From Candidatus Sumerlaeota bacterium (GTDB lineage Bacteria; Sumerlaeota; Sumerlaeia; JAFGJS01): a stretch of DNA of 17,209 bases. This document shows, in pieces, positions 917 through 14,484 of this stretch. The translations under genes were made by a program, and so were the position numbers. The stretch's first letter is position 1; each line of letters opens with the position of its first letter. The notes beneath the pieces were generated by a model that was given only the letters and a program-made list of their open reading frames with translations, did not search any database and had not been told where the DNA came from. The stretch lies in the NCBI GenBank assembly GCA_016928995.1, contig JAFGJS010000130.1:1-17209 (forward strand), given 5' to 3'.

Positions 917-2359
917 ATGCTTTGGCGACTGCGTGTCTCCGAATTAGGATCGAATTGTATCGACCGATGCAAAATCACTGCATCGATCGTGCTTTTTTTC
1001 CTTTGCGGGGCTTTCGTGGTCCAGGCTGGAATTGGCGGAAAAACCGCCGAGGACGGACCTTTTCTTTTGGATGACGCGGAAGACCTGGATCTGAATGCTG
1101 TAGGAGTGGCTCGCGATTGGATTTCCGATTATGTTCCATCACATGGAGATGTGCTGGATGTCCTTGTCTTGCCGGAATCGGGTTTGACGCTCATGCCGGC
1201 TCAGACGCCTATCGGAGCATTGCGTGCGAGTGTTCCCGAAGAGGATGCCGTTGGCACAACGCCGGGATGGATGGGGAAGGGCTTTGGCGTTCCAGTTCCG
1301 AGTCTGCCGGGGCAATCAACGGCGGATTATCCTGGAGATTTCACATCGTATAACTTTCTGAATTTCAAGGCATGCTATGATCCGGATATGGCCAATGCTG
1401 AATTCCTGGTAGTGTTGGAAGCTTATCCCAAAATGGAAATTGAGCCTCGTGTGCTGGATTATCCCAAAGTTTATTGGAAAGTCTATCCGCCCCTTGGCAG
1501 TTCATTCATGGATGTCTGGATGGATTTATGGGATCCGATTGAAATAGCTCCCCCAGATTCGGTGGAATTGAGCGCTTTGCTGTCGCAAACGCGTTTTTTT
1601 TATTTTTATGCGGGCGCTTATCCGGTCGAGAAAAACAGCCTTATGTTGTATGATATAGACGACATCCGTTTGGTTCATGCGGAGGTCGGCGGTAAGAGCG
1701 CCTATGAGGGAACCATGATTATCGACGACGCCGAGGATCTGGACCTGACGGCTGATGGGGTGGAACGAGACTGGATTCCAGACAACATTGCGCCAGTTGG
1801 AGCTGTTTTAACCACATTTTCACTGACGTCATCGGGAATGACTCTCGCCGTTGGACAGAGCGCTATTGGCGCGTTGCTGGCGACGGTTCCTGAGACGCAC
1901 ACAGGCGGAAAGCCCGATGGCGACATTGACGGAGGATTCAGCCTGCCATTGCCGTTGATTCCCGGTGCGTCCGAAGAGGATTATCCGGCGGATCTGAGCG
2001 GCTTTCGCGCTTTGGCGTTCGAAGCGTGCAGCGGAACACAATATTCGGGACAGGAATTCAGCGTCACACTATTGGCCGGTCAAGGGCCTGTATATGCGGA
2101 GTTGCTGTGGGAATTGACACCTCTTGAGGGCGATGTTTTTGCGACGGTGGAAATCGATTTACGCCATCCGGATGAGGTTAAAAAGACTGGCGGCTTGTCT
2201 GTGGACGAAATGCTGAGCCAGGTCCGGCAGCTTGAGTTTAAGATTTCAGCAATGTCGGTTCCTCATGGTTCAACCGCGGAGTTGTATCTTGATGATGTCC
2301 GGTTGCTGGCGAGAGACAGGATGCAAAGCGCGCGAGTCAAGCAGTGGATGCTTTATTAA
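917..2359 (+). CDS. Secreted protein with two tandem beta-sandwich-like modules
   Basis: Start 917 is preceded by GAAGGA at 905-910 with 6-nt spacing and places a signal peptide at the N-terminus: a basic stretch, then a hydrophobic core at about residues 22-36, with a likely cleavage after V-Q-A37. An ATG at 887 is an alternative. The mature 440-residue protein is an internal duplication: the motif GGKxAxxG...DDAEDLDL...GVxRDWI at residues 40-70 recurs at 258-288, an offset of 218. Both copies also share S/GxT L-x(6)-IGAL-A-VPE further on and end in LYxxDDxRL. That ending and the alternating beta-type pattern resemble jelly-roll carbohydrate-binding modules (CBM11/CIA30-like), an inference from pattern only. 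No catalytic motif, membrane anchor or sorting signal is visible at the C-terminus. A role in binding envelope or extracellular glycans would fit the polysaccharide operon downstream. Function is not established. Confidence 0.75.
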   Translation: MLWRLRVSELGSNCIDRCKITASIVLFFLCGAFVVQAGIGGKTAEDGPFLLDDAEDLDLNAVGVARDWISDYVPSHGDVLDVLVLPESGLTLMPAQTPIGALRASVPEEDAVGTTPGWMGKGFGVPVPSLPGQSTADYPGDFTSYNFLNFKACYDPDMANAEFLVVLEAYPKMEIEPRVLDYPKVYWKVYPPLGSSFMDVWMDLWDPIEIAPPDSVELSALLSQTRFFYFYAGAYPVEKNSLMLYDIDDIRLVHAEVGGKSAYEGTMIIDDAEDLDLTADGVERDWIPDNIAPVGAVLTTFSLTSSGMTLAVGQSAIGALLATVPETHTGGKPDGDIDGGFSLPLPLIPGASEEDYPADLSGFRALAFEACSGTQYSGQEFSVTLLAGQGPVYAELLWELTPLEGDVFATVEIDLRHPDEVKKTGGLSVDEMLSQVRQLEFKISAMSVPHGSTAELYLDDVRLLARDRMQSARVKQWMLY

Positions 2360-2360
2360 A

Positions 2361-2389
2361 TTGAATCTCATCTCATGATATAGTATAAC
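2361..2389 (+). promoter_or_regulatory. Sigma70-type promoter of the polysaccharide operon
   Basis: -35 TTGAAT (2361-2366; 4 of 6), a 17-nt spacer and -10 TATAAC (2384-2389; 5 of 6), starting directly after the stop codon of the upstream gene. The predicted start near 2396 gives a leader of roughly 70-130 nt, depending on the start codon of the GH::GT2 gene. A 7-bp hairpin (2408-2414 with 2425-2431, loop 10) lies in this leader. It has no T-run. Confidence 0.55.
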
Positions 2390-2468
2390 ATCAATCAATG
2401 CCGCAAAGCGGAATGCCGGGGGAAATTCCGCTCTTCATCAAATCAGGCGATAGAATTCGCGCGAAAGG

Positions 2469-5057
2469 ATGATTCCGGTTTCGGCGCAGGTTATCCGTTG
2501 GAATTTTGCGAATCACGCACAGGCGATTATGCGCAATCTGATCTGTCAAGGGCATCATTTTTATCAGGACGGCCAGAAATGGCTGGTGAAAGGAGTAACC
2601 TACGGGCCCTTTCGGCCGAACAAGAACCAGCAGCCATATCCGGAAATAAAGCGACTGGAAGAGGATTTCGCCGCGATCGTGCGGATGGGCGCGAATGCCA
2701 TTCGCCTGTACACCGTGCCGGATGAGCAAGTGGCCGAGGCGGCGATGCGGCATGGGCTGATGTTGTTGGTGGACATTCCATGGCCCAAGCATTTGGATGT
2801 GTATGGCGATCCCGGCGTGCAAGAACTCTGCCTTCGGATGCTCGATGAAGGGCTTCAGCAATGCAAGGATTGGCCGAATTTGCTTGGACTTTGTCTGGGC
2901 AACGAGATTCCCGCGGATTTGGCGCGCTGGGTCGGAGCGCGACGAGTGGAGTCGTTCTTGCGGCGGCTGTATGACCGGGTGAAAGATCAGGATGCGAAGC
3001 TATTGGCCGGATACGCCAATTATCCCTCCACGGAATACCTCAGGCTCAACTTCTTCGATTTTATCGGCTTCAATGTGTATATGCACGACGCCCAGTCCAT
3101 GCGGAATTATTTATTGCGTTTGCGCCATCTCTATCCAGAGACGCCGTTGATCCTGAGTGAGTTTGGCCTGGACAGCGAAAGCAATGATCTCAAGGCGCAG
3201 GCGGATATCATCTATGACGGACTGAAGGCGGCGTTTGAGGTGGGGCTGGCCGGCGGCTTTGTTTTCTCGTGGACCGATGAGTGGCATACCGGCGGTTATG
3301 ATATGACGGAGTGGGCATTTGGATTGGTGGACACGGAGCGGCGCATCAAACCGGCGTTGCATGCCGCGTCCCGGATTTATCTCTCCGCGCCGCATTTTGA
3401 GAAGATCGAGCCGTTGAAGTTTTCCGTTGTCGTAGCCACGTACAACGGCGGCCGCACACTCCGGCAGTGCCTTGAGTCGCTCGAACAGCTCGACTACCCG
3501 GATTATGAAGTGATCGTGGTGGACGACGGCTCGACGGATGACACGCAGGAAATACTCAAGGATTTTCCCAAACTCCGAGTCGTCACTCAAACCAACCAGG
3601 GGCTATCCCTGGCGCGCAACAGCGGCATCGAAGCCGCCACTGGCGATATCGTCGCGTTCACGGATTCCGATTGTTTTGTCGATCGCGACTGGCTGTATCA
3701 TCTGGCGCTGATTTTTCAGCGAAAGGATATCGCCGGAGCAGGTGGCCCCAATCTGACGCCCCCCGAAGATCGTCTGGCTGCGCGCGCCGTTGCGCTGGCG
3801 CCGGGCCACGCGACGCACGTGCTGATTGATTACGACGAGGTTGAGCATGTCCCCGGCTGCAACATGGCGTTTCGCCGGGAGGTTCTGCTGGAAGCCGGGG
3901 GATTCGATCCTGTTTTTCGCAAAGCAGGCGACGACGTGGACATCATCTGGCGTCTGCGCGACATGGGCCACCGCATGGCGTTCGCTCCGGGCGCATTCGT
4001 GTGGCATTACCGGCGTCCCACGCTGAAATCCTACTGCAAGCAACAACTTGGCTATGGAGAAGCGGAAGCGCTGTTGATCAATAAACACCCACACCGCTTC
4101 AATGATCTTGGGCAATCGATCTGGAGCGGCTTCATCTATGGCTCCGTGGAAAACCAGGCCCTGATGCGCAAACCGAACGTTCGCTACGGCGTTTTTTGCT
4201 CCAGCGGATATCAGTGCATTTATCACCGGCCTTCGCGCGCGTTTTCGCATTTACTGACATCCTTCGAATGGTGGTTCATCTGCCTTGGTCTGCTGTTGGC
4301 TGGTTTCTTCGCCAAGCCCGTCCTGTTTACGGGGCTGGCTGGCATCGCCGCATCAATCGGAATGAATCTTGGATACACCTGGCGGCGCATGATCGGACAG
4401 CGCGACTTTTCGACTCGGCTTTTTTTCAACGTCTTGCTGCTTTGGATTTTGCAGCCGGTTTTGAGGGGAGGGATGCGCTACTGGCGCCGTTTGCGTACGA
4501 TTCAACCCTCAACGCCGCCGCAGGCGCTCAAAGACGATGAGCCGAGGGTGGCGGATCCATTTCTTAACGCGAAAATTCTTCGATACTGGGGCGAGGAAAC
4601 GCTGCCGCGTTTGGATGTCGTGCGGAAATTCGCCGGAAAAATGGCGCGACGGCATTGGATCTTCACGCCAAACACCGAGTGGGAGCCGTGGGATTTGTCG
4701 GTGGTGGTTTCCTGGTGGTTCAAGGTGCGCCTGACAACCTCCGAGGAGAATCACGGCGCGGGCAAACGGCTTTTGCGCATCCGTTTGCGTCTCGTGCCGA
4801 CCACGCTGCTGCGCATCCTCAGCGGCGGCAGTTGCGCATTGGTTGCGGCGCTGTTTTTTCATAACACGATCTGGGCGCGCGGAATCGCCATTGGCCTGCT
4901 GCTGCTTTACTGGCTGCTTTACCGTCAGGGGCGGAGGCTCCGGCTGATCGTCGAACGGCAGATCGACGTTGCGGCGCGCGAAATGGGATACGACCGCATG
5001 CCGTCGCAGGCCGAGGAGATCGAAGTCCGGCGGGATGTGCTGGCGAAACAAAGTTGA
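2469..5057 (+). CDS. Fusion: GH2-type TIM-barrel glycoside hydrolase + GT2 glycosyltransferase, membrane anchored
   Basis: 862 residues from ATG 2469. AAAGG touches that ATG, so ATG 2529 (21 residues in, AGGCG upstream) may be the true start; it begins just before the conserved fold. Residues about 30-305 form a GH2-C/GH5-like (clan A) TIM barrel: FYxxGxKWLVKGVTYGPF, LGNEIP with E146 as likely acid/base, and LILSEFG with E231 as likely nucleophile. Both catalytic carboxylates look intact. Residues about 317-540 are a GT2 (GT-A) domain: SVVVATYN, VDDGSTDDT (D352, D353), TDSD (D399, D401), GCNMAFRR, and the DDVD acidic motif (488-491). Hydrophobic helices follow at about 601-636 and 650-667, and again at about 786-818 before a cytosolic basic tail. 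It likely adds sugars to a glycan or lipid-linked acceptor at the inner membrane, while the barrel may trim, transfer or edit. Which side of the membrane the barrel faces is unclear: no signal peptide is visible. First gene of a six-gene operon; 38 bp to the next. Confidence 0.85.
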   Translation: MIPVSAQVIRWNFANHAQAIMRNLICQGHHFYQDGQKWLVKGVTYGPFRPNKNQQPYPEIKRLEEDFAAIVRMGANAIRLYTVPDEQVAEAAMRHGLMLLVDIPWPKHLDVYGDPGVQELCLRMLDEGLQQCKDWPNLLGLCLGNEIPADLARWVGARRVESFLRRLYDRVKDQDAKLLAGYANYPSTEYLRLNFFDFIGFNVYMHDAQSMRNYLLRLRHLYPETPLILSEFGLDSESNDLKAQADIIYDGLKAAFEVGLAGGFVFSWTDEWHTGGYDMTEWAFGLVDTERRIKPALHAASRIYLSAPHFEKIEPLKFSVVVATYNGGRTLRQCLESLEQLDYPDYEVIVVDDGSTDDTQEILKDFPKLRVVTQTNQGLSLARNSGIEAATGDIVAFTDSDCFVDRDWLYHLALIFQRKDIAGAGGPNLTPPEDRLAARAVALAPGHATHVLIDYDEVEHVPGCNMAFRREVLLEAGGFDPVFRKAGDDVDIIWRLRDMGHRMAFAPGAFVWHYRRPTLKSYCKQQLGYGEAEALLINKHPHRFNDLGQSIWSGFIYGSVENQALMRKPNVRYGVFCSSGYQCIYHRPSRAFSHLLTSFEWWFICLGLLLAGFFAKPVLFTGLAGIAASIGMNLGYTWRRMIGQRDFSTRLFFNVLLLWILQPVLRGGMRYWRRLRTIQPSTPPQALKDDEPRVADPFLNAKILRYWGEETLPRLDVVRKFAGKMARRHWIFTPNTEWEPWDLSVVVSWWFKVRLTTSEENHGAGKRLLRIRLRLVPTTLLRILSGGSCALVAALFFHNTIWARGIAIGLLLLYWLLYRQGRRLRLIVERQIDVAAREMGYDRMPSQAEEIEVRRDVLAKQS

Positions 5058-5095
5058 ACGATGCTTGATTTGAACCTTCGACATTTTGAGAGATC

Positions 5096-5665
5096 ATGGA
5101 TTTCATGAAGCCGCTTCGCCATCATATTGCGTCAACGTCAGGTTTCACCTTGGTGGAACTGCTGATTGTGGTGTTGATCCTGGCGATTCTGGCTTCGATT
5201 GTCGTGCCCAATCTCATGGAGTTTGCCACGCGCTCAAAAGTCGCCCGCGCGCAAGCGGAGCTGCGCACTCTGGCGACCGCGCTGGAGGCGTATCACGTGG
5301 AATGGAATTCCTATCCGCCGACGCCGCTGTCATCCCTGTCGGATCGCGCCAGCCGCTTGCGTTTCCTGACGACGCCCATCGCGTACTTAACGTCGTTGCC
5401 CAATGAAGTGTTCGACTTGAAGGAAGGCGAGCAGGAGCCATATGCGTTTTGGAGCGCGAATTTAAATGACGCCATGAAATATTCGCCGATGTATTTTTAT
5501 TTGCCCGATGAGCAGGCGCGGAGCGGACGATGGGTGTTGTTCAGCCGTGGACCGGACATCGACTATGAAGCGGCCGTGGAGGAAGGCGGCGGCGGATTGT
5601 TGATGTATTACGATCCGACGAACGGATCCGCCAGCAATGGCGACTTGATGCGATTCGGGCCGTAA
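5096..5665 (+). CDS. Type II secretion/type IV pilin-like pseudopilin (GspG-like)
   Basis: 189 residues. A short basic leader ends in G16, followed by F17-T-L-V-E-L with E21 at mature position +5. This is the classic prepilin peptidase (class III) site. A hydrophobic helix runs from about 17 to 40, then an amphipathic alpha-1 helix (KVARAQAELRTLATALEAYH) typical of GspG-type pseudopilins. The C-terminal half is globular, with GRWVLFSRGPD and a closing DPTNG...NGDLMRFGP, seen in many pseudopilin-like proteins of environmental bacteria. A second in-frame ATG lies three codons in (5105). GAGAG at 5087-5091 gives a modest ribosome site. No secretion ATPase, secretin or prepilin peptidase gene is nearby, so this is an orphan pseudopilin placed inside a glycan operon. 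Its role there is unknown. A periplasmic or surface fibre or scaffold component is one inference. Confidence 0.85.
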   Translation: MDFMKPLRHHIASTSGFTLVELLIVVLILAILASIVVPNLMEFATRSKVARAQAELRTLATALEAYHVEWNSYPPTPLSSLSDRASRLRFLTTPIAYLTSLPNEVFDLKEGEQEPYAFWSANLNDAMKYSPMYFYLPDEQARSGRWVLFSRGPDIDYEAAVEEGGGGLLMYYDPTNGSASNGDLMRFGP

Positions 5666-5701
5666 TTTTCGAGCATTCTATGTTCGGCAAGTGGGATATT
5701 G

Positions 5702-7525
5702 ATGTATAGAAAAGACTGTATCATGTCGCGTTCGAACTGGAAAAATTATCTGCCGTTGCTGTGTTACGTGCGCCCTTACTGGAAACTGGCGCTGGCGCAG
5801 GTCGTGTTCATGGTTTTCGCGACGGGGCTGGGATTGCTCAAACCCTGGCCGTTCGCCGTGTTGATCGACAATGTCGCAGCGGACCTGCCGTTGCATCTCG
5901 GCGAGCGCTTGATCGCTGAAAATCCAATGACGATTCTGGCGCTGGTTTGCATCGCCGCGCTGGCGCTGCACCTTGGCGATTCACTGGTCAGCCTCGGCGC
6001 GACGTACGTCTCGACGCTCAGCTGCAGCCGCATGATTCGCGACTTGCGCGGCGACCTGTTGCGACACCTGCACCGGTTGTCGCTTCGTTTTCACGACCAG
6101 CATCGGGTCGGCGATCTGGTCCATCGCATCTGCTTCAACACTCCCGCGGTGGAGACGGCGTTCCAAAGCGGTCTGATGGGCGGAACCAAGAGCCTGTTGA
6201 TGCTGAGCGGCATGTTGTGCGTGATGTTCATCATGAATCCGATGTTGACCCTGATTGCGGCGGGCGTGTCGCCCTTTCTGGTGATTTGCATCCGGATGTA
6301 CACGAAACGAATCTATCGCTACTCCCGCAAGCACCAGGACCAGGAAGGCTCGATTTCTTCCATCGCCGATGAGATTTTATCTTCGATCCGCCTGATTCGC
6401 GCCTTCAATAGAGAGGCATGGGAGCAGCAGCGGTTCGAGGAAGCCTGCGACGGCAGCATCCAGACGCGCCTGAATTCCATGCTGGCGCAAAAACTGTTCG
6501 GCGTCGCCACTGCGTTTATCCTGGTGGCCGGCACGGTGCTGTTTTATTGGATCGGCATTCAGGAGGTGCGCGCGGGCAATCTGACCATTGGCGAATTCAC
6601 CGTGTTCAATGCATATATCGGGATGCTCTATACTCCGCTTTCCGTGTTGAGTTCGACGGCATCCAGTTTGCAGGCGGCGATGGGGGGCGGGAGCCGCGTG
6701 CTGGAAATTCTGGATAGCGACGTGGACGTCGAAGACAAACCAGACGGAAAGACGCTGGATGCGCCGCGCGGCGAGTTGAAACTTGAGAATGTCAGTTTCC
6801 GTTACGATTCCGAGAATCCCGTGCTGGAGAAGATCAATCTCTCGATTGAGCCAGGGGCGCATATCGGCATCGTGGGTCCGACCGGCGCGGGCAAGAGCAC
6901 CCTGTTGAATTTAATGCTGCGCTTTTATGATCCGGACGATGGGCGCATCTTGATGGATGGATGCGATTTGCGCGAATTGGCTTTATCGTCGCTTCGCAGC
7001 CAGATCGGACTTGTGCCGCAGGAATGCACGGCGCTTTCCGGCAGCATTCGCGATAACATTGCTTTCGGCAAGCTGGATGCGAGCGACGAGGAAATTCAGG
7101 CGGCGGCGGAGATCGCCGACGCTTGCGCTTTCATCAACAAGTTTCCCGAGCGTTTCGGCACGCCGGTCGGGGAGCGCGGCGTGCGCCTCTCCGTCGGGCA
7201 ACGGCAACGTATCGCGCTGGCGCGGGCGCTGCTCAAGGGTGCTCAGGTTTTGCTGCTGGATGAGCCGACATCGGCGCTGGACGCGGGGACCGAAACGAGA
7301 GTCATGGAATGCCTGCTGCAGCATTGCGAGGGAAAAACCATGGTGATCGTCGCCCACCGTCTGTCTACCATTCGGCGCGTGGACTGTATTTATGTGCTGG
7401 AGAACGGCCAGATTATAGAAAGCGGCGGTCATCAGGAATTGCTTGCCTCTCAAGGCGTTTATGCTAAAATGTGGAATGCACAAATGGATGGGCATTCTAT
7501 TCCGATTACGAGCCAATTCGAATGA
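5702..7525 (+). CDS. MsbA-type ABC exporter (fused permease and ATPase)
   Basis: 607 residues from ATG 5702, chosen because GGGA lies 5 nt upstream. A TTG at 5699 and an ATG at 5723 are alternatives. The N-terminal half (about 20-310) has the six-helix exporter membrane domain. The ATPase half carries Walker A GPTGAGKST (392-400), the Q-loop region VPQECTALSG, the signature LSVGQRQRI (496-504), Walker B VLLLDEPTSALD (D520, E521) and the H-loop IVAHRLST (H552). The signature has V in place of the first G of LSGGQ. The substitution is not expected to inactivate, since catalytic residues are complete. This architecture (MsbA/PglK-like) forms homodimers that flip lipid-linked glycans, lipids or peptides across the inner membrane. 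The 36-bp gap upstream and the 4-bp ATGA overlap with the following GT4 gene indicate co-translation, so the cargo is probably the operon's glycan or glycolipid. Confidence 0.92.
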   Translation: MYRKDCIMSRSNWKNYLPLLCYVRPYWKLALAQVVFMVFATGLGLLKPWPFAVLIDNVAADLPLHLGERLIAENPMTILALVCIAALALHLGDSLVSLGATYVSTLSCSRMIRDLRGDLLRHLHRLSLRFHDQHRVGDLVHRICFNTPAVETAFQSGLMGGTKSLLMLSGMLCVMFIMNPMLTLIAAGVSPFLVICIRMYTKRIYRYSRKHQDQEGSISSIADEILSSIRLIRAFNREAWEQQRFEEACDGSIQTRLNSMLAQKLFGVATAFILVAGTVLFYWIGIQEVRAGNLTIGEFTVFNAYIGMLYTPLSVLSSTASSLQAAMGGGSRVLEILDSDVDVEDKPDGKTLDAPRGELKLENVSFRYDSENPVLEKINLSIEPGAHIGIVGPTGAGKSTLLNLMLRFYDPDDGRILMDGCDLRELALSSLRSQIGLVPQECTALSGSIRDNIAFGKLDASDEEIQAAAEIADACAFINKFPERFGTPVGERGVRLSVGQRQRIALARALLKGAQVLLLDEPTSALDAGTETRVMECLLQHCEGKTMVIVAHRLSTIRRVDCIYVLENGQIIESGGHQELLASQGVYAKMWNAQMDGHSIPITSQFE

Positions 7526-8559
7526 GAATTGCTGAGATATCCACTCTACAGAGACCCGTGAAGCCGGATTCGACGGCTTCCGTGGAATCCCTGGTGTATA
7601 CGATCACAGAGGGCTTGGTTGAGCGAGGCCATGACGTGACGCTGTTCGCGTTAGCGGGATCGCGCACGTCCGCCCGATTGCAAAGCCCGGTTGAAACCAG
7701 TTACAGCGTGGATGGTTCAAAATGGGACTGGCAGCTCTATGAGGCTTATCAAGTGCGCGAGGCTTTTCGCCGCTGGAAGGACTTCGACATTATCCACTGC
7801 CATTCGTATCACCATGGCCTGCTCTGCTGCGATTTCGTCTCGATTCCGTCGCTGCATTCAATCCACATCGACCCCGGACCGGACTACGTGTTTCTTGGGC
7901 AGCTCGTAAAGAAACGGCATCTGGTGTTTTGCTCCAAATATCAGGCGCGCGACTTCGCGGGAATGCGCGATGTGTATATCATCCCCCATGGTCTTGATAT
8001 GCAACAATACTACCTGTGCGATGAGGAGCGCAGGGAGCCGTATCTGGCTTTCCTCGGGCGTTTCATGCCGGATAAAGGGCCGCTTGAGGCGATTCAGTTT
8101 GCGCGCAAGGTTGGACTGCCAATCAAATTGGCTGGCGAAGAGAACGAGTACTTTCAAGAATACATCGCGCCGGAAATCCAAAAAGGCGGAGTGGAATATG
8201 CCGGTGAATTGCGAGGATCGCAAAAAATCGATTTTCTGGCTCGCGCCAAGGCGTTGCTCTATCCCTTGCAGCGCGGCGAACCGTTCGGTCTGGTGCTCAT
8301 CGAGGCGATGGCATGCGGTCTGCCTGTGCTGGCGTTAAACAAAGGCGCTTCGCCTGAGATCATCGAGCATGGGCAAACGGGATGGTTGGGCTGGACGATG
8401 AAAGACCTGGAGGATGGATTCAAGCATTTGGAGGAGTTTGACCCGGTGTTGATCCGTAAACGAGCGGAGGAACGGTATTCCGTGGACATTATGATCGACC
8501 GCTTGGAACAGCTCATGCAGCAAATCATCGAGGAGCGCAATAATGCATCGCGCCGTTAG
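7522..8559 (+). CDS. GT4 family glycosyltransferase
   Basis: 345 residues. The start ATG at 7522 overlaps the TGA of the ABC gene (ATGA), and residue 1 begins the expected Rossmann strand MRIAEIST. A longer frame start at 7471 would lie inside the ABC gene and adds no conserved sequence. The N-terminal GT-B domain shows the GLVERGHDVTLFA and DIIHCHSYHHG motifs. The C-terminal nucleotide-sugar domain shows FLGRFMPDKGP and the retaining E-x7-E motif EPFGLVLIEAMACGLPVLA (E253, E261), followed by GASPEIIEHGQTGWL. It probably transfers a hexose or similar sugar from a nucleotide donor to a lipid-linked glycan on the cytosolic face of the membrane. The sugar cannot be read from sequence. Its 3' end carries the ribosome site of the next gene (AGGAG at 8531-8535). 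Confidence 0.9.
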   Translation: MRIAEISTLQRPVKPDSTASVESLVYTITEGLVERGHDVTLFALAGSRTSARLQSPVETSYSVDGSKWDWQLYEAYQVREAFRRWKDFDIIHCHSYHHGLLCCDFVSIPSLHSIHIDPGPDYVFLGQLVKKRHLVFCSKYQARDFAGMRDVYIIPHGLDMQQYYLCDEERREPYLAFLGRFMPDKGPLEAIQFARKVGLPIKLAGEENEYFQEYIAPEIQKGGVEYAGELRGSQKIDFLARAKALLYPLQRGEPFGLVLIEAMACGLPVLALNKGASPEIIEHGQTGWLGWTMKDLEDGFKHLEEFDPVLIRKRAEERYSVDIMIDRLEQLMQQIIEERNNASRR

Positions 8560-9529
8560 GCCGTTGCGGGCGCGCTATATCGGTTATACGAAAGGAACGA
8601 TGAATCACGGCGACGAGGCTCTGATTTGGATCATCCGCGAGTTGCTGGCGCCGGAAATCGAGGTTCTCACCGAAGGGGATGAATACGATCTCGCGCTGCT
8701 GGGCGGCGGCACGCTGATCAATCAGTCGCCTTGGCTCATTGATGCGTTTGAAGCCGCGCTGAATAAGGCAAAAGGCGGCATGACGCTGGGAACCGGCGTC
8801 GGCGATCCGGCGTTCTGGGGCGATCATTTTGAGCGCTGGAGCGCGCTGCTCAATCGTTGCGACTTCGTCGGGGTGCGTGGGCCGCGTTCCGTGCAACTGC
8901 TCCATCAGCGCCAGATTGAAAAGGCCATTTGCGTCGGCGATCCTTATCTTTGGCTGCGATCTCCAGTTGAGCGGGATCCAATTCCCCGGCGCCTTGGAGT
9001 CAACCTGGGCGGCACAAATAATTCACTCTGGGGCGGAGGGAAGGATCAGGAGTATCTGGAATATGCCGCTGGCGAACTCAGCGCACTGCGCCGGAAGGAC
9101 TGGTCGTTCATCTGGCTGTCCGTTTGGGAACAGGATTTACCGTTGCTGGAGCGAGTGCGAGCGCGCGTAGATTCCTTATCGCCCGGCGTGATCGACGTCA
9201 GGACACAACCGTTGGAGGCTTACGCGGCGCTGGCTGGATGCGATGTTTTCCTGGGGGAGAAGTTGCACGCGAGTGCGATGGCCGCGGTGGCGGGGATTCC
9301 CTTTATCGCATTGGAATATCAACCCAAGGTCGTGGATTTCGCCGCTTCGATTGAGATGGCGGATTGCTGCCTTTCCACCGCGATACGCGAGCCGGGTGCG
9401 CTAACGGATAAAATCGAGGAACTCCACGGCCGGCGCGACGTTGCACAAATGAAAATGATCGAGGCGCGCGACCGGCTGCGCCTGGAATTGATCGAATTCA
9501 CCCGTGCAATCGAAAAGCGATTCTGCTAA
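8543..9529 (+). CDS. Polysaccharide pyruvyl transferase family protein
   Basis: 328 residues. The start at 8543 overlaps the GT4 gene by 17 bp and has AGGAG 7 nt upstream. Family signs: the N-terminal YIGYTKGTMNHGDEALI motif (GxxNxGDEA-type), a glycine-rich LLGGGTLIN loop (residues about 52-60), VGVRGPRS, and C-terminal GEKLHASAMAAVAGIPFIALEY with H242, matching the R/K-x-H-A motif of the CsaB/WcaK/AmsJ-type pyruvyl transferase family (PF04230). Characterised members transfer pyruvate from phosphoenolpyruvate to form ketal groups on cell-wall or capsular sugars. The family also includes proteins of unknown reaction, so substrate is an inference. In this operon it most likely adds an acidic decoration to the exported glycan, which in other bacteria can anchor SLH-type proteins. 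None is seen here. Confidence 0.85.
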   Translation: MHRAVRPLRARYIGYTKGTMNHGDEALIWIIRELLAPEIEVLTEGDEYDLALLGGGTLINQSPWLIDAFEAALNKAKGGMTLGTGVGDPAFWGDHFERWSALLNRCDFVGVRGPRSVQLLHQRQIEKAICVGDPYLWLRSPVERDPIPRRLGVNLGGTNNSLWGGGKDQEYLEYAAGELSALRRKDWSFIWLSVWEQDLPLLERVRARVDSLSPGVIDVRTQPLEAYAALAGCDVFLGEKLHASAMAAVAGIPFIALEYQPKVVDFAASIEMADCCLSTAIREPGALTDKIEELHGRRDVAQMKMIEARDRLRLELIEFTRAIEKRFC

Positions 9530-9553
9530 AGTACAATTTGTTTGGAGTTGATG

Positions 9554-10717
9554 ATGCGCATCATCCTTGCGGGGATCATCGGACGTTATCCTTGGGGCGG
9601 AGTGACGTGGTGCAGTTTGATGTACCTGCTAGGGCTGCGCAAACTGGGTCACGATGTTTATTATATCGAAGACACCTGCGAATGCAATTACGACCCCGAG
9701 ATCAACGCCATCGCCGTCGATCCGAAATACGCCCTGAATTACATTCATCAGAGTCTTTCGCCGTTCGGTTTCGGCGATCGCTGGTGTTATATCGACTACA
9801 AGGGCGGCCATCATGGCATGACGCGCGAAGCCTGCGAGGAAATCTGCGAATCGGCCGATCTGTTCCTTGTCTTGTCCGGCGGTTGCTGGATCTGGCGCGA
9901 TCATTATCTCGAAATTCCCGTCAAGGTTTTCATCGACAGCGATCCCGCTTTCACTCAACGCGCCCTTGAGCAGGCCCGGCAAGCCGATGCTCAGCAAGAA
10001 AAAAAGCAATGGTATGTCGATTTTTTCCGGACCTATGACCGGCTTTTCACCATGGGCGGCAATATCGGTTTCGATGAATGCGACACGCCGGTGGCTGGCT
10101 TCGATTGGTTTCACATCTTGCAGCCGGTGGACACGGAGATTTGGACGCCGAATCAATCCGCGCTTCCTTCGCGCGAGGAGTGGACGACCGTCATGAGCTG
10201 GTCCATTCACAGTTTCAAGGACATCGGCGGCTATAAGGATCAGGAGTTTTTAAAGGTTCTCGACCTGTCCCGGCGCTGCGCCGAACGAGGCGGACCTGCG
10301 CTTGAACTGGCGATCAACGGTCCGATGGAGTTATTGCGCGAGCATGGATGGCGCTGCGTGGACGCCAACGGCGTCTCTTCGGATCTTTGGCGCTATCATG
10401 GCTATCTTTCCACCAGCCGGGGAGAGTTCGGCGTGGCCAAGCACACTTATGTCGAGAGTCAATGCGGATGGTTCAGCGACCGGACGGAGTGCTACATGGC
10501 GGCCGGACGGCCTGCCGTGGTTCAGGACACGAATTTCGCGACTAGAATTCCCGCCGGAGAGGGGCTGTTCGCCTGGAAGACCGCCGATGACGCCATCGAG
10601 GCGCTGTTGGCCGTTGAAGCGGACTATGACCGCCATAGCCGGGCCGCGCGCGAGCTGGCGATGGAATACTTTGACAGCCGACGGGTTCTTTGCGCTCTGC
10701 TCGATCGCTGTTCATGA
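9554..10717 (+). CDS. GT-B fold glycosyltransferase-like protein
   Basis: 387 residues from ATG 9554 (GGAG at 9544-9547, 6-nt spacing); ATG 9551 is directly adjacent and TTG 9542 is also in frame. The protein opens with RIILAGIIGRYPWGGVTWCSLMYLLGLRKLGHDVYY, a glycosyltransferase-type Rossmann start with a glycine-rich loop. The middle has an FTMGGNIG segment and a linker to the second domain. The C-terminal part shows ESQCGWFSDRTECYMAAGRP (301-320) followed by AVVQDTNF and GEGLFAW, the sugar-nucleotide side signature of an uncharacterised GT-B family related to GT1/GT4. No E-x7-E motif is obvious, and the mechanism is not predictable. It is the last gene of the operon (24 bp after the pyruvyl transferase gene). 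Its TGA at 10715-10717 abuts the stop of the convergent gene. Confidence 0.8.
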   Translation: MRIILAGIIGRYPWGGVTWCSLMYLLGLRKLGHDVYYIEDTCECNYDPEINAIAVDPKYALNYIHQSLSPFGFGDRWCYIDYKGGHHGMTREACEEICESADLFLVLSGGCWIWRDHYLEIPVKVFIDSDPAFTQRALEQARQADAQQEKKQWYVDFFRTYDRLFTMGGNIGFDECDTPVAGFDWFHILQPVDTEIWTPNQSALPSREEWTTVMSWSIHSFKDIGGYKDQEFLKVLDLSRRCAERGGPALELAINGPMELLREHGWRCVDANGVSSDLWRYHGYLSTSRGEFGVAKHTYVESQCGWFSDRTECYMAAGRPAVVQDTNFATRIPAGEGLFAWKTADDAIEALLAVEADYDRHSRAARELAMEYFDSRRVLCALLDRCS

Positions 10718-12106
10718 AAGCCCGGCAGCGCCGCCGCTTGTTTCCGCGGCATCGGTTGTTTCATCGGCGTTCGAGAGAGCAGGGGAGACATTTTCTTCAT
10801 TCTTTCGCCGGTTGTTCGACAGCGCGCCTGCCAATAATACCATCTGTGCAATCAACAAGCCCTCAAACGGTTTTCGGTATCTTCCTTCATTGACTGAAAT
10901 CGGCAGCAGGCCCTGAACGATAAACCAGCTCAGGATGATGGCCGGCAATAACAGGCGCTTCTTGAGCGCGCGCCAGGAAAGGATGCTGCAAATCAGCACG
11001 TAAACGCCCAGCGGCGCCCAAATCCACCGCAGGTGATAATTGAGAGCGCTCAGCACATCAGCATCATTGGAGTCCGGCCAGGATGCGCTGAAGAATAGAA
11101 AGATCAGATTTTCCTTGGTGATCCAACGGTATTTTTCCAGCGTCAATTTGTTTTCTTCGAGACTCTTCTTCCAGCCCTCTTTGCCTTTGTCGATGTCGAT
11201 GTCGACGACAACTTTGTCTTTTCGCTGAGTATGCCAATCGATCAGGGGCTCCAGCGGATCGATCAGCAAAACAGGGGACATGAATCCGAAATACCAGACT
11301 TGATTTCCCTGATGGCGCTTGTAGTTGATTTTAACCTCTTTCTTGCCGGACATGGCATAGATCATGTTCAACTGGCCCACGCCATGCGGCGACACAAGGC
11401 CGATTTGCTGATAGCTGCGGATGCTCAGCGGAATCAAAATCGATCCCAGCAGCAAAATCGAGTAGGCGGCTTTCTTCCATTTCTCCGGTTGCGCAAGCCA
11501 AAGCCCGATCGCCGCCGTCGCCGCCATCGGGATGCAGGCGCCTCGCGTGAGTCCGGCGATGGCCCATAATGCAACCATCGTGACGAACGACTCCACCGTT
11601 TGTTTGCGCTTGCAGCGCCAGGTCATCCATAGCGCAACGCCCAGCAACGGCAACATCAAGGTTTCCTGCATGTAGTAGGAATAGATGCACAGCCATGATG
11701 GCAGCCAGATGATGACGGCCGCACCGGCGAGCGCCGCCGGTTTCGACGTTTGTAATTCCCGGAAGAATTTATACCATGCCCAGGGCATCAGCAGGCAGAG
11801 AATAATGGTGTAAAAGATGATTAATTTGGCGTCTCCCGCGGCCAATTTCGCGATCGCGCCGATGTAAAGCTGATACATGATTGGATCCGTCATCGTCATC
11901 GGATCGGTGCGCAAGGGTTCGATACCCTGCTCCCAGTGGCGTTGCGGATCGCTCCATACATGCATGGGTGGATTGAAATCGGATATGTAGCCCACGCGAT
12001 GAATAGCGCCGGCGATGATAAAAAAATACAAAATGCACAACAATAATGAGCGCTTGGAAAAGATTTTCCAACATCTGCCCCTTAGTGTCTGCATTGCATT
12101 CGACAT
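10712..12106 (-). CDS. Multi-membrane GT-C-like (ArnT/PMT-type) glycosyltransferase
   Basis: 464 residues. I chose ATG 12106 (MSNAMQTL...) because AAAAGG precedes it with a good spacing and the first membrane helix follows at about residue 20. The frame also opens upstream at 12151 but without a ribosome site. About nine to eleven hydrophobic helices alternate with loops. The first outside loop carries an acidic motif, DFNPPMHVWSDPQRHW (43-58), the position of the catalytic acidic residue in GT-C enzymes. Further marks are SYYMQETLMLPLL, an LTRGA motif, NYHLRWIWAP and the late EGRYRKPFEGLL. This order matches lipid-phosphate-sugar-dependent glycosyltransferases (GT39/GT83-like) acting on the outside of the inner membrane. 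Donor and acceptor are unknown. The C-terminal tail is Ser/Ala/Glu-rich and hydrophilic. Its stop codon is flush with that of the convergent GT-B gene. Confidence 0.75.
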   Translation of the reverse strand: MSNAMQTLRGRCWKIFSKRSLLLCILYFFIIAGAIHRVGYISDFNPPMHVWSDPQRHWEQGIEPLRTDPMTMTDPIMYQLYIGAIAKLAAGDAKLIIFYTIILCLLMPWAWYKFFRELQTSKPAALAGAAVIIWLPSWLCIYSYYMQETLMLPLLGVALWMTWRCKRKQTVESFVTMVALWAIAGLTRGACIPMAATAAIGLWLAQPEKWKKAAYSILLLGSILIPLSIRSYQQIGLVSPHGVGQLNMIYAMSGKKEVKINYKRHQGNQVWYFGFMSPVLLIDPLEPLIDWHTQRKDKVVVDIDIDKGKEGWKKSLEENKLTLEKYRWITKENLIFLFFSASWPDSNDADVLSALNYHLRWIWAPLGVYVLICSILSWRALKKRLLLPAIILSWFIVQGLLPISVNEGRYRKPFEGLLIAQMVLLAGALSNNRRKNEENVSPALSNADETTDAAETSGGAAGLS

Positions 12107-12417
12107 ATCACGCCTTTTGATCAGCAGAGCAAAGCGATGCGCCATCCGCAAAATTCATTGCGTCAGTGCTGAAGCTTAAGATCGATCGTGGAAATGCGTT
12201 TTGAAATATTCAAATTTTCAATCGAGAAGAAAGGATGATACAGATGGCGGCGGCATGTCGTCTCCTCCCTCTTTCCCTTCCTTCTTCTCACCATACCAGC
12301 ATGCATCCATGCTATTTCTTTCACTGCGGCACGAAAGTCAAGTTGATTAATTTGAGAATCATCGGAGAGACTGCCGAAGTTGGGATTTATCTCAAGATAA
12401 ATGCGCCTTTGGCGCAT
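12107..12417. other. Intergenic leader of the GT-C gene, with tract C and hairpins
   Basis: This gap of about 310 bp between two - strand genes holds no supported protein gene. It contains a homopyrimidine tract (12261-12289), a small palindrome TTTGAA-ATA-TTCAAA (12200-12214), a 6-bp hairpin AGCATG/CATGCT (12298-12313) and, at its right edge, two overlapping hairpins (12385-12420). A - strand TTGACT lies at 12336-12341, but at 17 nt it meets only a poor -10 (GAAATA), so I call no promoter. Confidence 0.55.
12261..12289. repeat. Homopyrimidine tract C (29 nt; purine on - strand)
   Basis: All 29 bases are pyrimidines on +. On the - strand it is a purine run in the leader of the GT-C gene, roughly 155 nt before its ATG. 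It aligns with tract B through the shared purine core AGAAGGA...GGGAAAGAG, despite being 11.6 kb away. It is too far from the ATG to be a ribosome site. Confidence 0.75.
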
Positions 12418-13304: not shown

Positions 13305-14468
13305 TTATTCTTTCTGCGCCGCCGGACTATGCACCGCTTCGATGGTGCGCAGGTAAAGCTGCTCATATTGATCGACGATCGGTTTCGGCGCAAATCGCTC
13401 TAATGCGGTTTTGCGCGCGTGATCGCTCATTTGCTGATAAAGCGCTTCATCGCGCAGCAGTTTCAACGCCAGGTCGCCCATCTGTGCGCAGTCTCCCACA
13501 TCAGCCAGGAAGCCGTCCTGCCCGTCGGTGATGACTTCCGGCAAGGCGCCGCTGCGCGATGCCACTACCGGCGTGCCGAACGCCAGCGCCTCCAGCGCCG
13601 CCAAGCCAAAGGATTCATGATCGCTCGGGAAGAGGAACAAGTCCGCGATGCAGAAAAACGGCTCCACCACATCCTGTTTGCCGACGTACCAGACCCGGTC
13701 CATCACGCCCAGCTCGCGCGCCAGGGCCAGCGTCTTGCCGCTTTCGGGGCCGTCGCCCACCAACAAGAGTTTCGCCGGCAGTTCTTTCGCGATCCGGGCG
13801 AATGTGCGCACTACGTCCGGCGTGCGTTTCACTTCGCGGAAATTGGAAACATGCAGGATGATTTTTTCGCCGGGAGCGGCGTAATGATCCCGATGGCAGC
13901 CCCCCTCGCCCCACTTGCAGTAGCGTTCCGTGTCGAAGTCGAAGAAGTTATAGATCACCTGGATTGGCCGTTTCACTTCGAATTCCCGGATTGTTTCGCG
14001 TTGCAGCCAATGCGACACCGCGGTCACGGCGTCGCTACGCTCGATGCCGCATCGAACTACTGACTTAAACGCCGGTTCTTTGCCCACCAGCGTGATGTCC
14101 GTGCCGTGCAGCGTGACGATCGTGGGGATGCGCCGCGGATGGGCCATCTCCTTCGCCAGACACGCGCTCACCGCATGCGGAATCGCATAGTGTGAATGGA
14201 TGATGTCCAGATTTTCCCGCTCGATCAGTTCCAGCAATTTTGCCGCGAGAGACAATGTGTATAGGCTTTCATTGCCAAACAAGGGATAGTTGGTTTTATC
14301 CACTTCATGGAAAAAGATATTTTCATGGTAGCGATGTTGCAGGCGGAAGGGCATGGATAGACTGACGAAATGAACCTTGTGGCCGCGTTGCGCTAATTGC
14401 CGGCCGAGTTCGGTCGCCACGACTCCGCTGCCGCCATATGTCGGGTAACATACGATTGCTATGTGCAT
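13305..14468 (-). CDS. bshA: GT4 glycosyltransferase, N-acetyl-alpha-D-glucosaminyl L-malate synthase (BshA)
   Basis: 387 residues, the usual BshA length. The frame is open far upstream, but ATG 14468 gives the exact family start, MHIAIVCYPTYGGSGVVATELG. Motifs in order: the glycine-rich loop (11-15), VDKTNYPLF, DIIHSHYAIPHAVSACLA, IPTIVTLHGTDITLVG, SDAVTAVSHWL, QVIYNFFD, HVSNFREVKR, LLVGDGPE, and the retaining E-x7-E motif HESFGLAALEALAFGTPVVAS (E285, E293). BshA joins N-acetylglucosamine from UDP-GlcNAc to L-malate, the first step of bacillithiol synthesis. The cytosolic thiol product protects against oxidants and electrophiles. The deacetylase (BshB) and cysteine ligase (BshC) genes are not in the window. 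The gene is divergent from thyA. A weak - strand promoter candidate lies at 14485-14515. It could be a related GT4 of the glycan cluster, but the HGTDITLVG and VSNFREVKR motifs favour BshA. Confidence 0.88.
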   Translation of the reverse strand: MHIAIVCYPTYGGSGVVATELGRQLAQRGHKVHFVSLSMPFRLQHRYHENIFFHEVDKTNYPLFGNESLYTLSLAAKLLELIERENLDIIHSHYAIPHAVSACLAKEMAHPRRIPTIVTLHGTDITLVGKEPAFKSVVRCGIERSDAVTAVSHWLQRETIREFEVKRPIQVIYNFFDFDTERYCKWGEGGCHRDHYAAPGEKIILHVSNFREVKRTPDVVRTFARIAKELPAKLLLVGDGPESGKTLALARELGVMDRVWYVGKQDVVEPFFCIADLFLFPSDHESFGLAALEALAFGTPVVASRSGALPEVITDGQDGFLADVGDCAQMGDLALKLLRDEALYQQMSDHARKTALERFAPKPIVDQYEQLYLRTIEAVHSPAAQKE

Positions 14469-14484
14469 GATCGATCCATATACG

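Follow-up and report, generated by a model that had tools for sequence, protein, structure and literature searches.

What do six adjacent genes make that join a two-headed carbohydrate enzyme to an MsbA-type exporter? The genes lie on contig JAFGJS010000130.1 of a Candidatus Sumerlaeota bacterium (GCA_016928995.1), and the window analysed here, 17,209 nucleotides, is one complete contig of a 4.5-Mb genome in 161 contigs. In order they encode a glycoside hydrolase fused to a family 2 glycosyltransferase (GH::GT2), a GspG-like pseudopilin, an ATP-binding cassette (ABC) half-transporter, a family 4 glycosyltransferase (GT4), a PS_pyruv_trans homologue and a GT-B-like protein (the last gene). The initial annotation saw here a possible ABC-based system exporting a decorated oligosaccharide; the gene set, the exporter type and a secreted partner protein proposed then stood up, and the display role suggested for the pseudopilin found no support. 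From sequence comparisons, we consider, with a probability of roughly 0.7, that the genes represent a conserved cassette that assembles and exports a decorated hetero-oligosaccharide. This cassette is apparently undescribed and widespread, with a core of GH::GT2, the MsbA-type ABC gene and a signature GT-B-like gene. A few searches of open-access literature gave no description of it, the only close analogue being a paper on NdvB-type GH17::GT2 proteins (PMC10237404).

Recurrence of the cassette across phyla

Conservation beyond this genome, on which the initial proposal depended, was found: the core recurs across many phyla, and the gene order in two further genera. In a scan of named genomes GH::GT2 was present at about 70 loci in at least 14 phyla beyond Sumerlaeota, the carriers being Alpha-, Beta- and Gammaproteobacteria, Desulfobacterota-type bacteria, Verrucomicrobiota, Planctomycetota, Omnitrophota, Cyanobacteriota, Chloroflexota, Bacteroidota, Acidobacteriota, Gemmatimonadota, Latescibacterota, Nitrospirota, Actinomycetota, Armatimonadota, Tectomicrobia and Binatota. 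At 35 of the 53 GH::GT2 loci with room for it, an MsbA-type ABC gene lies within 6 kb downstream on the same strand, and at 29 of 49 a member of the last-gene family lies within 10 kb. When all loci were counted, ABC genes within 6 kb were downstream on the same strand in 45 cases and upstream on the opposite strand in 1, with none upstream on the same strand or downstream on the opposite strand; GT-B-like genes within the same distance were downstream on the same strand in 37 cases and upstream on the opposite strand in 2. Neighbour clustering of six-frame open reading frames (ORFs) was used only for picking candidates, shadow frames having overwhelmed the result in high-GC DNA.

The two signature genes also occur together by genome. 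GH::GT2 was found in 8 of 386 whole genomes and the GT-B-like family in 7, all 7 being among those 8; the naive chance of this overlap is 3e-14, or 9e-9 over the roughly 346 non-Sumerlaeota genomes, values that ignore relatedness, the five non-Sumerlaeota genomes coming from five families. In G210, the eighth genome, the contig breaks off shortly after the ABC gene. The last gene stands beside GH::GT2 in intact contigs, while in two Sumerlaeota genomes (G025 and G037) the two are linked by contig fragments; the profile used for the last gene was built from cassette neighbours and describes that subfamily only. The association runs in one direction only: GH::GT2 can stand alone, whereas no last gene was seen in its absence. 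Loci with neither an ABC nor a GT-B-like partner include L056, L075, L083 and L119 (Verrucomicrobia, Nitrospirae and Desulforhabdus), and the product of such a lone enzyme would show its minimal activity. No relatives were found in viral contigs, and in tblastn against plasmids the matches were to generic GT2 only and all covered less than 80%.

Within Sumerlaeota, GH::GT2 (at this similarity level), the last gene and a secreted module described below each occur in the identical 3 of 40 genomes. G025 retains the complete order GH::GT2, pilin, ABC, GT4, PS_pyruv_trans and last gene (L022/L023), with GH::GT2 split over two contig ends, and the contig fragments of G037 (L020/L021/L144) are consistent with the same order.

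Organization of the locus

The six genes are co-directional on the + strand between 2469 and 10717, with successive gaps of +38, +33, -4, -17 and +12 bp (Table 1). All six ORFs and the spacing of -17 to 38 bp agree with the initial annotation, and Pfam supports its gene set for every product except the last. By layout the genes are a single operon, chance being excluded because their order is kept in two other genera. For the GT4 gene the most likely start is ATG 7522, which gives a 4-bp overlap with the end of the ABC gene.

Table 1. Coordinates of the predicted operon and its flanking features in the window
Feature	Position	Strand	Basis or remark
Secreted two-module protein	917-2359	+	Signal peptide and two CBM11/CIA30-like repeats
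Possible promoter TTGAAT-N17-TATAAC (weak)	2361-2389	+	9/12 match by eye
GH::GT2 fusion	2469-5057	+	Pfam GT2 and Glyco_hydro_72-like
GspG-like pseudopilin	5096-5665	+	Pfam N_methyl/T2SSG; ortholog at same position in G025 and G037
MsbA-type ABC half-transporter	5699-7525	+	Pfam ABC_membrane and ABC_tran
GT4 glycosyltransferase	7522-8559	+	Pfam GT4; ATG 7522
PS_pyruv_trans (polysaccharide pyruvyl transferase family, PF04230)	8543-9529	+	Pfam
Probable GT-B glycosyltransferase (last gene)	9542-10717	+	Glyco_trans_1_2 matches of relatives
Convergent gene bounding the 3' end of the operon	10712-12151	-	ORF list

The promoter that had been placed ahead of GH::GT2 fared less well. Its sequence is present, but it was not in the list of a stricter promoter scan, and promoter-like matches were hardly commoner in the window (16) than expected in shuffled sequence (11.4 +/- 3.8), so that this weak match would not by itself be evidence. 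The gene for the secreted protein ends 109 bp before GH::GT2, and the scan gave no terminator-like site between 2359 and 2469; the unit may therefore hold seven genes, the secreted-protein gene being the probable seventh member.

Elsewhere in the window, a BshA homologue on the minus strand (about 13305-14470) scored 503 bits against an equivalog cut-off of 273.7, pointing to possible bacillithiol synthesis in Sumerlaeota.

The GH::GT2 fusion enzyme

GH::GT2 consists of a clan GH-A TIM barrel (residues about 21-310) and a GT2 domain (317-560), followed by predicted membrane helices (about 595-676), a conserved C-terminal alpha/beta domain (about 700-777) and further helices. The barrel has the marks of clan GH-A, namely an acid/base Glu after Asn on strand 4 and a nucleophile Glu on strand 7; the catalytic pair is E146/E231, and N145-E146 and E231 were invariant in 30 of 30 relatives. 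Equally invariant in 30 relatives were the aspartates of the GT2 motifs D353, D399xD401 and D488-D489-x-D491. In place of the processivity motif Q(Q/R)xRW the enzyme has QQxGYG, with Q525, Q526, Y529 and G530 present in all 30. Sequence and fold searches both put the GH domain nearest to the beta-1,3-glucan-active families GH157 and GH72: Pfam Glyco_hydro_72 matched at 1.7e-9, and the modelled barrel gave Z 32.4 to GH157 at about 21% identity. E231 aligned (counted by eye) with E224 of the GH157 enzyme LaGH157, the residue mutated in 9g4n. Pfam gave no GH17 match in the protein at E<=0.01, and GH17 was absent from the fold-search rows of the barrel, which alone exclude nothing. The MftF equivalog TIGR03965 scored 182 bits against a cut-off of 280.

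In a structure model of the whole protein (mean predicted local distance difference test score, pLDDT, 80.7), the barrel directly precedes the GT2 domain and membrane helices appear only after it; neither the sequence nor the model has a signal peptide or hydrophobic segment before residue 595. Since GT2 enzymes use cytoplasmic nucleotide sugars, and since no signal peptide or membrane segment separates the two domains, the GH domain should be cytoplasmic.

These features bear on the possibility that the locus makes a cyclic or branched periplasmic beta-glucan in the manner of NdvB/NdvA, with GH::GT2 alone making and closing or branching the glucan, the ABC protein exporting it free (ChvA/NdvA-like) for osmotic or surface use, and the other genes only decorating it. 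The kinship of the GH domain with an endo-beta-1,3-glucanase (GH157) and a beta-1,3-glucanosyltransferase (GH72) fits this idea, as do the presence of GH::GT2 alone in some genomes, the resemblance of the secreted modules to CBM11, a binder of mixed-linkage beta-glucan, and the 337 bits that the ABC protein scores with the NdvA model PRK13657. That score, however, is below the cut-off of 733, and TIGR01192 likewise gave 251 bits against 585. Pseudomonad NdvB-type proteins also have an N-terminal GH fused to GT2 (PMC10237404), but their signal peptide, periplasmic GH17 and inter-domain helices are all missing from the window's GH::GT2, which has QQxGYG instead of Q(Q/R)xRW; moreover, two or more extra glycosyltransferases point to a heteroglycan. 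We regard such an NdvB/NdvA-like system as unlikely.

The ABC exporter

The exporter is a fused half-transporter with ABC_membrane (PF00664, 8e-48) and ABC_tran (PF00005, 6e-32) domains, in line with the MsbA type assigned initially, and its best model scores were MsbA-related (461 and 426 bits). The absence of Wzx, Wzy, Wzm and Wzt from the operon, also proposed then, held in Pfam and NCBIfam searches: none of the ten window ORFs scanned by Pfam, all six operon genes included, had a Wzx or Wzy domain, and a single fused ABC protein replaces the separate ABC-2 permease and ATPase of the Wzm/Wzt arrangement. In the exporter tree the cassette ABC proteins required more than one label change relative to the ABC paralogs of the window genome, and phyla were mixed. 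This pattern suggests either horizontal movement with repeated recruitment of exporters or poor resolution with long branches.

The MsbA-related scores could also indicate a glycolipid pathway, in which a membrane lipid is glycosylated and then flipped to the outer leaflet, as MsbA does with lipid A-core. The predicted membrane anchoring of GH::GT2 is compatible with this, and the GT4 family includes many lipid glycosyltransferases. Nevertheless, the 426 bits for the MsbA lipid A exporter equivalog TIGR02203 are below its cut-off of 602, the operon has no lipid-synthesis or acyltransferase gene, and the GH domain is left unexplained; a glycolipid product is thus rather improbable.

Still less probable is an ordinary capsule, exopolysaccharide or O-antigen region served by Wzx/Wzy from elsewhere and containing the ABC gene incidentally. 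The enzyme families are all generic, the contig is only 17 kb long and Wzx-type genes do exist elsewhere in the genome, but an incidental ABC gene is at odds with its position after GH::GT2 on the same strand at most loci and almost never upstream, and with the identical gene order in three genera.

Downstream glycosyltransferase and decoration genes

The GT4 protein belongs to a distinct subfamily also present in cassettes of Acidobacteriota, Cyanobacteriota, Tectomicrobia and genome G176. The PS_pyruv_trans protein falls in the PF04230 superfamily (3.8e-24), with 72 bits for the CsaB equivalog TIGR03609 against a cut-off of 213. As the curated equivalog cut-offs for MsbA, NdvA/ChvA, CsaB and MftF were all missed, these names were rejected as assignments. 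Decoration genes in the cassettes of other phyla encode PS_pyruv_trans, hexapeptide transferases, PIG-L, YdjC, ATP-grasp and APH-type kinase proteins. PS_pyruv_trans was identified in two Bacteroidota cassettes by Pfam and in a third by profile; its count of 0/53 loci in a window-based phmmer search reflects the sensitivity limit of that search.

The last ORF itself matched nothing in Pfam or NCBIfam. However, 7 of 24 relatives match Glyco_trans_1_2, and the family profile has a weak PDB match, at the C-terminus, to the GT-B enzyme Gtf3, so the gene product is likely to be a GT-B glycosyltransferase. Four to five copies of this family are found in single cassettes at L061:17476-22321 and L098:14233-22241, which suggests a glycan structure that varies among lineages. 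In the uncultured Acidobacteria RBC084 (L081:14690-16833), the GT-B-like gene scored 446 bits to that of the window, compared with about 260 or less for others outside the phylum, hinting at horizontal transfer.

The secreted protein and the pseudopilin

The upstream protein starts with a signal peptide, after which come two repeats of one module (about 1019-1681 and 1682-2317); an ORF start at 713 is over-extended, and with ATG 917 the hydrophobic segment of the signal falls at the N-terminus. Each module is a predicted beta-sandwich resembling NDUFAF1/CIA30 (Z 13.7) and CBM11 (Z 13.0), in a model of middling confidence (pLDDT 72) built from a shallow alignment, and it is plausible that the modules bind sugar. 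The tie between this protein and the cassette suggested by the initial annotation was borne out: the module occurs in only the 3 Sumerlaeota genomes that have GH::GT2, and all six modules found adjoin the cassette. In G025 it lies on both sides of the cassette (L023:7633-8451 and L022:8326-9000), and in G037 (L021) it forms two separate tandem genes rather than the single two-module gene of the window, variation that may reflect gene duplication or fusion.

Relatives of the pseudopilin number 12-56 in each of the 40 Sumerlaeota genomes. Where their surroundings were inspected, they are scattered as single genes in unrelated contexts, a phylum-wide expansion with no obvious function. The cassette pilins of the window, G025 and G037 are nevertheless orthologs: they share 65-67% identity, whereas the closest of the remaining copies reach 51% at best. 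No relatives were found inside the cassettes of other phyla, where the only pilin matches (L076 and L084) were weak and upstream. By this distribution the pseudopilin is a lineage-specific addition to the cassette, and the role in surface display once suggested for it finds no support in a family so abundant in the phylum and absent from the cassettes outside it. A pilin-centred secretion system was set aside on the same copy numbers. All three Sumerlaeota cassettes keep the pilin and the secreted module, but a system for glycan-assisted secretion or for the glycosylation of pili is most improbable, given the many pilin copies in unrelated contexts, the absence of both components from other phyla's cassettes and the lack of an oligosaccharyltransferase in the operon.

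Proposed pathway

In the pathway that we propose for the hetero-oligosaccharide cassette, the GT2 domain, anchored by the helices following it, would act together with GT4 and the GT-B-like enzyme on the cytoplasmic side of the membrane, where they would assemble an oligosaccharide, probably attached to a lipid carrier. The cytoplasmic GH domain, whose nearest relatives act on beta-1,3-glucan, would trim, branch or transglycosylate the same chain; the PS_pyruv_trans homologue would attach a pyruvate ketal or other group; and the MsbA-type protein would carry the product across the inner membrane. In Sumerlaeota, the two-module secreted protein may bind or hold the exported glycan outside. We are most confident that the cassette assembles and exports a glycan, and think it quite probable that the GH domain acts on the pathway's own glycan. 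A lipid-linked hetero-oligosaccharide is somewhat favoured over a free cytosolic glucan as the product, and the odds that the secreted modules bind the exported glycan are about even.

Several observations weigh against the hetero-oligosaccharide reading. The operon holds no gene for an initiating transferase or lipid carrier, and Wzx-type flippases elsewhere in the genome mean that some steps might be supplied by, or shared with, other glycan pathways. In the exporter tree, the ABC proteins of the cassettes are not a single clade separate from the other ABC exporters of the window genome. Furthermore, 18 of the 53 loci lack an ABC gene within 6 kb downstream, and since those examined carry GH::GT2 alone, this enzyme can work without the exporter.

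If the reading is correct, relatives of this machinery are present in many phyla and serve an unnamed envelope or exported glycan, whose synthesis and cleavage are coupled in one enzyme. The cassette can be recognised by its two signature genes in whatever genome it occurs, and Calothrix PCC 7716, Singulisphaera acidiphila, Segetibacter and Pleomorphovibrio, carriers that are in culture, open the pathway to direct testing.

Comparison with known systems

The NdvB/NdvA (ChvB/ChvA) system for cyclic beta-1,2-glucan resembles the cassette in pairing a large synthase that has a carbohydrate-active domain with an MsbA-type ABC exporter. However, the synthase domains differ, the exporter falls below the NdvA and ChvA cut-offs, and the cassette has extra GT4, GT-B-like and pyruvyl-transferase genes. 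With PglK and MsbA, flippases of lipid-linked glycans and lipid A, it shares a fused ABC_membrane and ABC_tran protein beside glycosyltransferases, but the equivalog cut-offs are missed and no oligosaccharyltransferase or lipid A genes are present. The N-terminal domain of GH::GT2 has the barrel fold and catalytic glutamates of LaGH157 (PDB 9g4n/9fz9) and GH72, free-standing enzymes without a GT2 fusion, at about 21% identity. Similarly, each secreted module shares its predicted fold with CBM11/CBM30 and CIA30 (Z about 12-14) but is only 10-16% identical to them.

The pseudomonad NdvB-type orphan GH17::GT2 proteins are cyclic beta-glucan synthases with a signal peptide, a GH17 domain predicted to lie in the periplasm, membrane helices between that domain and GT2, and the motif Q(Q/R)xRW; the paper describing them mentions no ABC transporter (PMC10237404). 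Like them, GH::GT2 is a single protein with an N-terminal GH barrel and a GT2 domain, then membrane helices. Unlike them, it has a GH157/GH72-like barrel, no membrane segment before GT2 and the QQxGYG motif, and an ABC gene and further glycosyltransferase genes usually follow. We tentatively suggest that the cassette may represent a cytoplasmic edit-then-export route, wide among phyla and distinct from Wzx/Wzy, Wzm/Wzt and synthase-dependent secretion: a single protein would add sugars through GT2 and cut or rearrange the chain through its clan GH-A domain, before dedicated MsbA-type export.

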